From assembly GCA_020073645.1 (NCBI GenBank), contig JAIQET010000002.1, positions 83,194 to 147,193 of the forward strand: a stretch of 64,000 nt of DNA, read 5' to 3'. The translations under genes were made by a program, and so were the position numbers. The notes beneath the pieces were generated by a model. The model ran no database searches and had not been told where the DNA came from. It saw nothing but the letters and a program-made list of their open reading frames with translations. Position 1 is the first letter of the stretch, and every line of letters starts with the position of its first letter. Of this stretch, positions 3,112 to 58,741 are shown piece by piece. This DNA is from Terriglobia bacterium (GTDB lineage: Bacteria; Acidobacteriota; Terriglobia; Terriglobales; Acidobacteriaceae).

Positions 3112-5103
<1,992 letters not shown>

Positions 5104-5263: not shown

Positions 5264-7111
5264 TTACGGAAGCTTGAAGTTCACCGTGATCTGGGTCTGG
5301 ATGGCCACGGGTTCGCCATTCAGAACGTAAGGCTGATACTTCCACTGCCGCACCGCATCCACTGCTGCCTGTGCCAGAGCAGGATGCCCATTGGCCACCT
5401 TGATCTTTGTAATGCTTCCATCTTTGCTGATACTGGCCTCGAGCTGCACCGCTCCCTGGATTCGCATCTGCAAGGCTTGCTGAGGATAGACGGGCTGGAC
5501 CCGTTTCAGCAACAGACCCTGCGAAACCCCTTGAGACACCCGCAGCGCCTGGACCGGTTTGGCCGGCACATTCGCGGGACCGCTAACAATGCCGGAGAGC
5601 GCTTTGTCGTCAGAATTCGAAGCTACCCCGATCATCCCAGGAACGGGCGGCTCCGCGCTTTCTGGCGCGGTCGGTTGCGTTGCCGCCGGCTTGGGCGCCT
5701 CATTCTTGACTACGATCGGTTCCTGAATCTTGGTCACTGTGACGTCGTTGCTCGGCGCGGCTGCGGTTCCAATCGTGATCGAAGGTTTAGTCGCCACGGA
5801 AGTCTTGGCGCTCACCACCGGAGTGGCTGCCTCTTTGGTTGGCGCAGAAGCCGCCCTAGGCTCCGAAGGAGATGGTTTGCCGGTTAGTACGGTCTGCGGC
5901 TCTGGAGTTGTAGCTTGCGGTTCCGTCGCGGGAGCCTGCGGCTGAACCGCAGGCACCTGGGTCTGCGTGGCGGGCGCGGATCCCGAATGCATCTTGCTCC
6001 AGCCGAAGTACCCCGCCATCGCCACCACGACCACCGCTGCGGCGATCATTAGCTTTTTCTTGCTTCCGCCACCGTCTGACTGCTCTTCATCCTGCAATCC
6101 AAGCGCTGAGAAAGCCGGCGGCTCGACGGCGGATTCTCCCAGCGACGCTCTCTTGGCTACGGCGTGCGGTCTGTCTTCGTCGTCTGGGCCGGGCGCGGGT
6201 GGAGTTGACCTCGGCTCCCAGGGCTTGACGCCAGGCCGTATGATTTCTTTCGCCGGAGCCGGCGCACTCGCCGCTCCCTGAGCGCTGGGCATGCTGCTGG
6301 CCGTCGGACGGGTTGGCGCCGTGCTCGCAGCCGGCGCATCGGCTTCCTTCGGCTTCGCAGCTTCGGCTGCACGTCGCAGAGCCGATGCCATCGGCTCCGA
6401 ATGCTTGGATGCGGGCTGCCAGGGATATTCTTTCGTCCTGCTTGCAGGAGTCGCAGTTTCTGCTGCCTTGTGGGCTGTGGGCACCGGGTCCGGCATTGAT
6501 TCCAGCAAAGCTTCGTCGGCCGGTTCCGGCTGTGGCTCCGGTTCCTTTTCCAGTTCGAAGTCGGAAGTGCTCGCGACCGGAGCTGTCGGCGGGGGTGGCG
6601 TCTTCTGCGCAAATGGCGCAAACGGCCGCCTCTCGGCTGTCAGCGCCGGAGCCGGCGGACGCATCGGCTCCACACTCGTGGCTGCAGGCCGCGCTGGTTC
6701 GGTAGATGTCGTCGCCGCTGGCGCCGCAGGCTTCCCGGCTTCCGCCTTTCGCAGCAAACCGCGCGCTACGCGCAGAGTTCCTTTGGATTGCTCCACATTG
6801 ATCGGCTTGGTCAAAACCAGGTTCGCCCCAATGCGGAACGCCTTGGCCACTCCCGCCTGGCCCTCGACCACCGCCACTGCCAGAGAACTTTGATTGGACC
6901 CCGAGTTACGCGCGCTCTTGAACAGCAAAGTCGCGTTCTGCTCGTTTTCGCAGTCCACGACGACAGCGTCAAAGTGCTGCCCCATCAGCTTCTTGACTGC
7001 GGCAAAAGGTTCGTTGCAGGGCTCAACCGTGAAGTCCAGCTCGGTCAAAACCTGCGTGACCACACGAGCTGTCTTCTCCTCTGGGCAGAAGAGTAGCGCT
7101 TGGTAACTCAT
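5264..7111 (-). CDS. Receiver-like N-terminal domain + TM + TonB C-terminal domain protein
   Basis: N-term FDAVVVDCEN...LVLTKPI receiver-like; TM LMIAAAVVVVAMAGYFGW; C-term VQPVYPQQALQMRIQGAVQLEASISKDGSI...VRQWKYQPY TonB_C. Confidence 0.75.
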   Translation of the reverse strand: MSYQALLFCPEEKTARVVTQVLTELDFTVEPCNEPFAAVKKLMGQHFDAVVVDCENEQNATLLFKSARNSGSNQSSLAVAVVEGQAGVAKAFRIGANLVLTKPINVEQSKGTLRVARGLLRKAEAGKPAAPAATTSTEPARPAATSVEPMRPPAPALTAERRPFAPFAQKTPPPPTAPVASTSDFELEKEPEPQPEPADEALLESMPDPVPTAHKAAETATPASRTKEYPWQPASKHSEPMASALRRAAEAAKPKEADAPAASTAPTRPTASSMPSAQGAASAPAPAKEIIRPGVKPWEPRSTPPAPGPDDEDRPHAVAKRASLGESAVEPPAFSALGLQDEEQSDGGGSKKKLMIAAAVVVVAMAGYFGWSKMHSGSAPATQTQVPAVQPQAPATEPQATTPEPQTVLTGKPSPSEPRAASAPTKEAATPVVSAKTSVATKPSITIGTAAAPSNDVTVTKIQEPIVVKNEAPKPAATQPTAPESAEPPVPGMIGVASNSDDKALSGIVSGPANVPAKPVQALRVSQGVSQGLLLKRVQPVYPQQALQMRIQGAVQLEASISKDGSITKIKVANGHPALAQAAVDAVRQWKYQPYVLNGEPVAIQTQITVNFKLP

Positions 7112-7243
7112 AATGGAATCGTAGGTACACCAGTCAGGCCCAGCAAGTTACGTAGGTAATTGTCGACAGCGATAGCTCTGCCGTTTCGCCGGGTTCGCGG
7201 CAGGTCAACCCTGGAGAACATTTCCGAATGACTCAGAGCACGG

Positions 7244-8785
7244 TTAGTGGGCTGGCTTCTTAGGTAACTCGAAACGCACTGTAACTTGCGTTCGGAAAGC
7301 AGCTGGTTGGCCGTTGTGATAATAGGTCTCGTAGCGCCACTGTCTGACGGCTTCCACCGCGGCTGCCACCAGTTGCGGGTCGCCGTCCAGGACTTGCACC
7401 GAATCCACGCTTCCATCCTGGTTGACCGAAGCCTGCAGCAGGACATCCCCCTCCAACCGCTTGCGGCGCGCCTTCTCCGGATAGATGGGCGTCACTCTGT
7501 GGCTGACGTTTTCATCGGAATACTCTGCCGCTACCTCCACGGGCTCGCTGTCGCTGCTTGCTCTCCGGGTAGCTGAGGTTGGAAGCAGAACGGAAGAAGA
7601 TGCGGCCCTGTTCGCCGTATCGCCTCCCTGTGGGCCTTGTGCAGATTTGTCTTGCGCTGATTGAAACCCATCAGCAACTTGTCCGCCTGTCGGGGCAGCC
7701 GCCGGCGCGCTGGCTCGAGGGCTCGGGGTAGAGAGTTTCGCAGCCGCGGCAGTCGGCGATGGCACCGGTTTGGGCGCGGCCTTGGGTGCCGCAACTATCG
7801 CTTGCGGGTTTGTCCTTCTTCCGGTGATGAGCAGGTGCAACCTTGCGTAATCCCTACGGGCTGCATCTCGGAATCCGGGTCTCATCGTCCACGCCGCATA
7901 GAAGCCGGCCCCGACCAGAAGTAACGCGAACAGTGCCAGCAACGACGGGCTGGTTCTCCGCTGCGACCCTCGCGCCTTGATCGAAGGCGCCGTCGGTTTC
8001 CTTCTGGCATCCAGTTCCTCTTCCAGCTCGCAAATGAGAAGATCTTCGTCCTCGGACGAGCGGTCCGCGCCCCTCCCCAACTTGGGCGGTGCCACGCTAG
8101 AAGCTTCTTTCTTGAAGTGGAACGGGCTTGGCGAGGCCAATGGAACTGCGGCTGACGAACCCATTTCGGTCGTCGTCCGATCTTGAGCGCCTGTCCCGGC
8201 GGCGGCAGCACGGGCCAGTGGCGAAGTCACGGCGTCTGTCTGCGGACGTTGCGGGTCATTTGGCGCTGGGGTGGTCAGAGTTTGCGTTGGCAACGGAGAC
8301 GGCAACACCGGTGCGGTGAGTGCGGGAATACTTTCAGCGGTCTTGGCAGGGGTGGCCGGCGCGCCGGGGGTCGTGTTCGCCTGCGCGGCCGCGGCCATCG
8401 CCTTGCTCTCTGGCACCTCTCTCCGCTGGATGGCCAGTGCATTGCGAAGCGTGCCTCTGGCCTGCTCCAGAGATACGGGCTTGGTCAAAACCAGCCTGGC
8501 GCCGAGACGGAAGGCGTTGGGCACGCCCGCCTTGCCGTCCACGATCGCCATCGTCATGGAATTCTGATTAATGCTTGATTTCCGCACGCTGTCGAACGCC
8601 AGCGTGGCGTCCTGCTGGTTGTCGCAGTCGATCAGAATCACGTCAAAGCGCTGGCCGGTCAGCCGCTTCCCCGCCGAGGACGGCTCCGGGAAGTGCTCGA
8701 AAAGAACCCCCAGTTCGTTGAGGATTTGAGTGACCGCGGCGAGCGCATTCTCGTCGCTCGACAGCAAGAGAGCGCGTGTGGGCAT
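7244..8785 (-). CDS. Paralogue: receiver-like N-terminal domain + TM + TonB C-terminal domain protein
   Basis: FDVILIDCDN...LVLTKPVSLEQARGTLRNA; TM LLALFALLLVGAGFYAAW; C-term VTPIYPEKARRKRLEGDVLLQASVNQDGSVDSV...VRQWRYETY. Confidence 0.75.
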   Translation of the reverse strand: MPTRALLLSSDENALAAVTQILNELGVLFEHFPEPSSAGKRLTGQRFDVILIDCDNQQDATLAFDSVRKSSINQNSMTMAIVDGKAGVPNAFRLGARLVLTKPVSLEQARGTLRNALAIQRREVPESKAMAAAAQANTTPGAPATPAKTAESIPALTAPVLPSPLPTQTLTTPAPNDPQRPQTDAVTSPLARAAAAGTGAQDRTTTEMGSSAAVPLASPSPFHFKKEASSVAPPKLGRGADRSSEDEDLLICELEEELDARRKPTAPSIKARGSQRRTSPSLLALFALLLVGAGFYAAWTMRPGFRDAARRDYARLHLLITGRRTNPQAIVAAPKAAPKPVPSPTAAAAKLSTPSPRASAPAAAPTGGQVADGFQSAQDKSAQGPQGGDTANRAASSSVLLPTSATRRASSDSEPVEVAAEYSDENVSHRVTPIYPEKARRKRLEGDVLLQASVNQDGSVDSVQVLDGDPQLVAAAVEAVRQWRYETYYHNGQPAAFRTQVTVRFELPKKPAH

Positions 8786-8918
8786 GATCGATGCTATGAG
8801 GCAAAATCACAGGGGCGCAAGTTACGCTGGTAAGCAACCGGGATCAGTGGCCGCCGCCTAGGCAAAGGCGCGGCAATTTCGTACAGTCAACCTAACTCCT
8901 GCGGCTACAATGGCGGCC

Positions 8919-9530
8919 ATGCGCGTGCCCCTCTGGCTCAAGCTCGGCTGGACCGTCTGGATAATCGCCTGGGCGCCGTTTTACTGGAAGCAATACGGCC
9001 TGCAGAACTTCCTGTTCTTCTGCGATCTGGGAAACCTCTTCATCATGCTCGCCCTGTGGCTGGAGAGCAGCCTGATCTTCTCCTGGCAGGCGACCGGACT
9101 GCTGCTGTTTCAGACCCTCTACACCATTGATCTGGCCGGGGCCGTGCTCAGCGGCAGGCACCTCATCGGCGGCACGGAATACATGTTCGACCCTAACCTG
9201 TCTTTATTTATCCGCCTGCTCAGCCTGTTTCACGTGGTGACGCCGCCGCTGCTGCTGTGGGCCGTCTGGCGCCTGGGATACGACAAGCGCGGCTGGCTCT
9301 ACCAGACGCTGACCGCCTGGATCGTCGTCCCCATCAACTATTTCTGGCGTCCGCAGCTCGACGTCAACTGGGCCCGCGGCCCCTTCTTCCGCGAGCAGCA
9401 CGCCATGCCCGGCCTGCTCTACCTGCTGGGATACTTGGTCGTGGTCCCGCTGGTGGTGTACTTTCCGACGCATTTGTTGTTGCGGTGGTGGGTGGGACGC
9501 GGGGAGATTCATGCTGGGGCGCGGGGATAG
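8919..9530 (+). CDS. Conserved integral membrane protein of unknown function
   Basis: Multiple hydrophobic helices; MRVPLWLKLGWTVWIIAWAPFYWKQYG. Confidence 0.65.
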   Translation: MRVPLWLKLGWTVWIIAWAPFYWKQYGLQNFLFFCDLGNLFIMLALWLESSLIFSWQATGLLLFQTLYTIDLAGAVLSGRHLIGGTEYMFDPNLSLFIRLLSLFHVVTPPLLLWAVWRLGYDKRGWLYQTLTAWIVVPINYFWRPQLDVNWARGPFFREQHAMPGLLYLLGYLVVVPLVVYFPTHLLLRWWVGRGEIHAGARG

Positions 9531-58405: not shown

Positions 58406-58741
58406 ATGCCCCGACGGATCGCAGTTGCGCTTCTCGCCCTCGCAATGCTTGGCGTCTTTCCCTCGCCTGTTTCCGGCCAGCAAAACGACCCGACCACCGG
58501 GCGCAAGGCCATCGTCAAGGTAAGGCCGGAATATCCCGAACTCGCGCGCCGGCTGAATATTTCTGGCACCGTCAAAGTCGGAGTCGTCATCGCGCCCGAT
58601 GGCAGGGTCAAGTCAACCAAGGTCATCGGGGGCAACCCTGTCTTCGTCGTGGCGGCTGAAAATGCGGTCCGCAAGTGGAAGTACACGCCAGCCTCGGGGG
58701 AAAGCCAGGAACTGGTCGAACTGAAATTCGAAGCTCGCTAG
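58406..58741 (+). CDS. Secreted TonB C-terminal domain protein
   Basis: VKVRPEYPELARRLNISGTVKVGVVIAPDGRVKSTKVIGGNPVFVVAAENAVRKWKYTPA; AGGAG RBS. Confidence 0.85.
   Translation: MPRRIAVALLALAMLGVFPSPVSGQQNDPTTGRKAIVKVRPEYPELARRLNISGTVKVGVVIAPDGRVKSTKVIGGNPVFVVAAENAVRKWKYTPASGESQELVELKFEAR

Follow-up and report, generated by a model that had tools for sequence, protein, structure and literature searches.

TonB is, in its textbook role, a power cable with almost nothing of it in the cytoplasm. For motor binding, both TolA and TonB use an SHLS motif (PMC12204202). Other proteins with TonB-like ends have been described, among them SjdR of Anabaena, which is located at cell septa and has a role beyond nutrient uptake (PMC8262864), and GltG (PglI), a component of the Myxococcus xanthus gliding machinery that is composed of a cytosolic FHA domain, one transmembrane (TM) helix, a long arm and a TonB_C domain and that binds the motor protein AglR in a two-hybrid assay (PMC3169522). 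Pseudo-receivers, defined as receiver folds lacking any of five conserved residues, are represented by the domain of FrzS that binds SgmX, and how they work has been called a mystery (PMC12632262). No description of a fusion between a receiver and TonB was found in a search of the open-access literature; a preliminary description of the locus reported here had put the architecture forward as a candidate for an under-described system. A plasmid search returned just ordinary TonB ends.

A tandem pair of receiver–TonB genes

The window (the whole stretch of DNA analysed, 64,000 nucleotides) belongs to the draft genome of an uncultured soil Acidobacterium (4.43 Mb, 123 contigs). Two of its genes, A and B (Table 1), encode proteins with the same layout, consisting of a receiver fold, a disordered linker, a single TM helix, a Pro-rich linker and a TonB C-terminal domain. 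The gene order is B-A-uvrB, all on the minus strand, with intergenic gaps of 132 bp (B-A) and 160 bp (A-uvrB). Both ORFs proposed in the preliminary description are present, and the tandem duplication that it noted is real, with the B-A pair found again in 23 of 80 related loci. The presence of 80 orthologous loci in public genomes, together with a dN/dS of ~0.02 for the A receiver, indicates that this architecture did not arise by chance. A third gene of this type, C86 (L059:8770-12034), is located elsewhere in the same genome. It is flanked by hypF and a histidine kinase gene, an arrangement common only to the same genus.

The neighbourhood of A was compared across loci. As uvrB adjoins A in just 11 of 80 loci, it is not a required partner. 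The 206-aa membrane protein upstream of B has no Pfam or NCBIfam match; it or a homolog is the divergent neighbour of A or B in ~48 of the 80 loci. In 35 of the ~56 loci having enough sequence 3' of A, a gene convergent to A encodes a Ser/Thr kinase that has a TM helix and PEGA-like repeats (identified by eye; for example in L108 and L101), and in the window its place is occupied by uvrB. The search for an operon partner of A was unsuccessful: the neighbours are a mixture of the divergent membrane protein, an MscS-like channel, uvrB and the Ser/Thr kinase (the last two recognised by eye from their sequences), with no fixed operon arrangement.

Table 1. Features of the two genes, their neighbours and other signalling domain–TonB genes of the genome (window positions unless a contig is named)
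Feature	Residues	Coordinates	Strand	Basis or remark
Gene A, pseudo-receiver–TM–TonB protein		5264..7111	-	615 aa; ORF, Pfam, 80 orthologous loci
A pseudo-receiver domain	1-122	6746..7111	-	AlphaFold pLDDT 91.3, PDB profile match, conservation
A Ala/Pro-rich linker, disordered, predicted cytoplasmic	123-350	6062..6745	-	low pLDDT
A linker motif GAAxAPAPA(K/R)E	279-289	6245..6277	-	column conservation
A TM helix, KKK on N side	351-374	5990..6061	-	hydropathy 1.94; helix in model
A Pro-rich linker, predicted periplasmic	375-525	5537..5989	-	length conserved
A TonB C-terminal domain	539-614	5270..5497	-	Pfam, PDB profile, Foldseek
Gene B, pseudo-receiver–TM–TonB protein, tandem paralog 5' of A		7244..8785	-	513 aa; ORF, Pfam
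B pseudo-receiver domain	1-122	8420..8785	-	Ser-Ser at the acidic pair; Asp and Lys retained
B TM helix	282-300	7886..7942	-	hydropathy 1.99
B TonB C-terminal domain	433-507	7265..7489	-	Pfam 70.7 bits
uvrB		3112..5103	-	Pfam; 160 bp downstream of A
Membrane protein, 206 aa, polytopic, divergent neighbour		8910..9530	+	association only
GAF–TM–TonB_C protein		G000:C6:16755-16982		own genome
PilZ–TM–TonB_C protein		C120:110757-110981		own genome
Ser/Thr kinase–TM–TonB_C protein		C57:37582-37791		own genome

The N-terminal domain is a pseudo-receiver

The receiver-like fold claimed for the N-terminal domains was checked by profile and structure searches. Pfam Response_reg scored 20.9 and 16.9 bits on the single sequences of A and B, below the cut-off of 30.2, but a PDB profile search with 19 homologous N-terminal domains had CheY as its best match (3e-8), with other receivers also matched, and Response_reg matched 18 of these 19 domains (best 3e-9). 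An AlphaFold model of the receiver alignment (pLDDT 91.3) showed five strands and five helices alternating in the (beta-alpha)5 order, and Foldseek with this model returned receiver domains. The claim of a receiver fold was therefore borne out by the family profile and the model, and not by the single sequences. In the model D53, E83 and K102 lie at the ends of strands 3, 4 and 5. On the basis of these strand-end positions we take D53, K102 and E83 of A to correspond to D57, K109 and T87 of CheY (CheY numbering). The B receiver is 48% identical to that of A.

Among 71 full-length A sequences the acidic-pair positions are occupied by C9 (71/71) and P10 (69/71) and the Thr position by E83 (69/71), while the phospho-acceptor Asp, D53, and the Lys, K102, are each present in all 71. 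In B the acidic-pair positions are S9-S10. None of 17 TonB-fused members has an acidic residue at either position, position 9 being C or S. Position 83, which closes beta-4, is E, D, G or N in these members and never Ser/Thr. The acidic pair is also missing from most PilZ-fused paralogs. With three of the five conserved residues gone, the N-terminal domain of A and B is a pseudo-receiver by the published definition (PMC12632262). The degenerate acidic pair, the putative phospho-Asp and the conserved Lys that had been read from the window alone were thus all confirmed in both proteins.

The preliminary description had further proposed a possible phospho-signal input to TonB. In the corresponding model, a sensor kinase would phosphorylate the receiver Asp and thereby gate the action of TonB. 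The receiver fold and the invariance of D53 and K102 are in keeping with this model, but no TonB-fused member examined has kept the acidic pair or the Thr, the residue that follows the Asp is Cys or Trp, and A also lacks Pro at D+4, Gly at D+8 and the aromatic at K-3 (E57, T61 and V99; read from the sequence). These losses make canonical Mg2+-dependent phosphotransfer by the A receiver unlikely. Nor was a conserved partner kinase found adjacent to the 80 A loci, near which there was one weak histidine kinase match. The proposed input is therefore unsupported and phosphorylation gating appears very unlikely. The histidine kinase beside C86 was considered as a partner and dropped, since the adjacency is restricted to the same genus. 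The invariant D53 and K102 of A could possibly form a buried salt bridge.

Reuse of the receiver pocket for redox or ligand sensing, with C9 and C54 forming a disulfide or binding a metal, would be consistent with the conservation of both cysteines in A (C9 in 71/71, C54 in 68/71) and with the presence of Cys54 in 14 of 17 TonB-linked and 23 of 34 PilZ-linked members. Across the family, however, position 9 is Ser about as frequently as Cys, and we regard such sensing as highly improbable.

Linkers and membrane topology

The long Ala/Pro-rich linker and the one TM helix that were expected to follow the receiver were recovered in both proteins, and a single TM helix separates the receiver from the TonB domain in the window pair and in all 73 A orthologs checked. 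The full-length AlphaFold model had an overall pLDDT of 53, and only its TM helix and TonB domain were modelled with useful confidence. In A orthologs the linker before the helix is 205 +/- 22 residues long. It contains a motif, GAAxAPAPA(K/R)E, whose columns are ~60-90% identical, compared with mostly 20-40% in the flanking linker, and which is possibly a docking motif. After the helix comes an arm of 170 +/- 11 residues, counted from the helix end to the YP motif of the TonB domain (72 A proteins). Lys and Arg are more abundant on the N-terminal side of the helix in 57 of 74 A proteins and less abundant in 5 of 74. This excess would place the A receiver in the cytoplasm, in line with the preliminary description, while the charges flanking the B helix leave its orientation ambiguous and do not decide the matter for B.

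The TonB domain and its energisation

The C-terminal TonB domain, also proposed previously, is certain in both proteins, with TonB_C (PF03544) scores of 82.7 bits for A and 70.7 bits for B against a cut-off of 24.6. The A domain matched TonB2 in the PDB profile search (3e-12) and, in Foldseek, FoxA-bound TonB of P. aeruginosa (6i97_D, TM 0.82), its closest structures being receptor-bound TonB. A search of the genome for Plug domains gave 15 matches, 12 of them above cut-off, and the genome hence encodes candidate outer-membrane receptors. At 58523-58705 (+) the window also encodes a 117-aa protein in which a predicted signal-peptide-like helix is directly followed by TonB_C; several such short proteins are encoded in the genome.

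To the TonB domain the preliminary description had attached the role of an energy transducer. The start of the TM helix was therefore compared with that of the 11 ordinary TonB/TolA-like proteins of the genome, in which the helix comes first and the linker follows. Strict Ser-x3-His was found in 5 of 11 ordinary TonBs and was absent from A, B and the 73 A orthologs (0/74 A proteins; 1e-5, with orthologs that are not independent); in the contrast between the 11 and the six TonB_C proteins that have a domain in the cytoplasm, the strict His form gave p = 0.10, which is not significant. When the motif was widened post hoc from H to HQE, a choice made once the data were seen, Ser-x3-[HQE] was present in 10 of 11 ordinary TonBs, compared with 2 of 74 A proteins and none of the six with a cytoplasmic domain (p = 6e-4 for the latter). 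In one of the ten, C29 (SLTIH), the motif lay just beyond the scanned interval and was read from the sequence. The TonB adjoining exbB and exbD, C5, has Ser-x3-Gln, so Ser-x3-His is an imperfect marker of motor binding. Five ordinary TonBs (C5, C88, C64, C41 and C55) have Ser-x3-Gln or Ser-x3-Glu at the site of the E. coli Ser-x3-His, which is possibly a lineage variant of the motor-binding motif. No exbB or exbD was found near A or B, and all matches in the genome are on other contigs.

The TonB half of A and B is probably not a normal, ExbB/ExbD-driven energy transducer. The principal alternative is that A and B are working TonB paralogs driven by ExbB/ExbD, with the pseudo-receiver regulating when or where the motor is engaged. 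A normal TonB domain, a periplasm-spanning arm, exbB and exbD genes elsewhere in the genome, with three ExbB-like proteins encoded, and the binding of AglR by GltG, which has a similar layout (PMC3169522), are compatible with this alternative. We nonetheless judge it unlikely, though a serious contender, because the TM helices of A, B and nearly all orthologs lack Ser-x3-His or a polar equivalent, exbB and exbD are not near A/B, and ordinary TonBs are encoded separately, one of them beside exbB and exbD.

The GAF, PilZ and Ser/Thr kinase modules of three further proteins of the genome are likewise joined through a TM helix to TonB_C (Table 1), and none of the three has the motor motif at the start of that helix. 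The PilZ and kinase types also have conserved counterparts in several other genera. We tentatively suggest that Acidobacteria of this bacterial family may use TonB_C as a general unpowered reader or anchor at the outer membrane. Cytoplasmic pseudo-receiver, PilZ, GAF and Ser/Thr kinase modules would each be joined to it via a TM helix lacking the motor motif, forming a class of trans-envelope signalling proteins apart from the cell's energy-transducing TonBs. Of 23 genomes, 6 encode full-length PilZ–TM–TonB, and the same 6 carry gene A. This was rejected as a functional link, as the six genomes are among the closest relatives (uvrB identity) and shared ancestry explains the co-occurrence.

Constraint, distribution and origin

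The A receiver is the most constrained part of the protein and is under strong purifying selection. In comparisons with three relatives, dN/dS was 0.020-0.024 for the receiver and 0.12-0.16 for the TonB domain, with looser linkers, and column identity was 0.89 for the receiver, 0.74 for TonB and 0.42-0.46 for the linkers. The B receiver is less constrained than that of A (dN/dS 0.18). The relatives are nearly all metagenome-assembled genomes (MAGs), the nearest named one being a Terriglobia MAG with a receiver that is 98% identical. An even draw of 247 genomes of the phylum contained a family member (1e-9) in 7 only, five of which belong to the same bacterial family.

The genome itself encodes nine members of the pseudo-receiver family (E <= 1e-3), consisting of A, B, C86 and six PilZ-type proteins. 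Among 57 domains placed in a tree, the TonB-linked receivers formed one group (98/92) nested among the PilZ-linked receivers. The simplest reading of this nesting is that the A/B receiver derives from the PilZ-linked family, PilZ having been replaced once by TM-TonB, with duplications following this one fusion.

A predicted trans-envelope adaptor

We consider it somewhat more probable than otherwise that A and B are bitopic, unpowered trans-envelope adaptors, in which a cytoplasmic pseudo-receiver docks a partner and TonB_C engages outer-membrane partners. By analogy with the docking of SgmX by FrzS, the pseudo-receiver would bind a conserved partner in the cytoplasm without phosphorylation. 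A flexible linker of ~200 residues would connect it to one inner-membrane helix, and the Pro-rich arm of ~170 residues would take TonB_C across the periplasm to bind TonB-box or other outer-membrane partners. Such an adaptor would probably position a cytoplasmic component at, or couple it to, outer-membrane receptors, and is probably not driven by ExbB/ExbD. Fold and layout, the loss of the metal-binding pair, the missing motor motif, purifying selection and descent from PilZ-linked pseudo-receivers were established computationally, whereas the membrane orientation, the binding of a partner and of the outer membrane, and the lack of energisation are inferred. The invariance of D53 and K102 counts against the adaptor reading, since a purely structural domain need not retain them; the motif form of C5, the binding of AglR by GltG and the ambiguous orientation of B are further points against it.

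The predicted function points to a little-described link that spans the whole cell envelope. The stronger conservation of the cytoplasmic module relative to the TonB end, combined with the absence of the motor signature, suggests that TonB domains may also act as trans-envelope signalling or anchoring parts. A and B provide a testable case for the mechanism of pseudo-receivers.

Comparison with known systems

A and B share the TonB_C fold, a Pro-rich periplasmic arm and a single TM helix with canonical TonB. They differ in having a large cytoplasmic domain, so that the helix starts far into the protein (residue ~351-354 in A, 282 in B), and in the absence of SHLS/Ser-x3-His and of exbBD linkage. 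SjdR differs in its GltJ/AgmX-like domain architecture and has no receiver fusion. FrzS resembles A and B in its receiver fold without part of the catalytic five, and its structures (2gkg, 2i6f) were profile and fold matches; unlike FrzS-type pseudo-receivers, those of A and B are linked to TonB_C by a helix that spans the membrane, and they retain the Asp and Lys while both metal ligands are gone. Within this bacterial family, the pseudo-receiver–PilZ proteins have a homologous pseudo-receiver but a PilZ output, which likely binds c-di-GMP, and no TonB domain.

GltG shares with A and B a cytosolic signalling domain, one TM helix, a long arm and a C-terminal TonB_C. It has FHA in place of the receiver fold and is encoded among glt motility genes. 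Pfam detected no FHA domain in A or B, and the AgmX/PglI C-terminal model (NF033768) scored 19.3 and 19.5 bits in A and B against a cut-off of 40. Since this FHA-TM-TonB protein has already been characterised, a signalling domain-TM-TonB layout is not unprecedented, and GltG is the closest characterised precedent for the layout of A and B.
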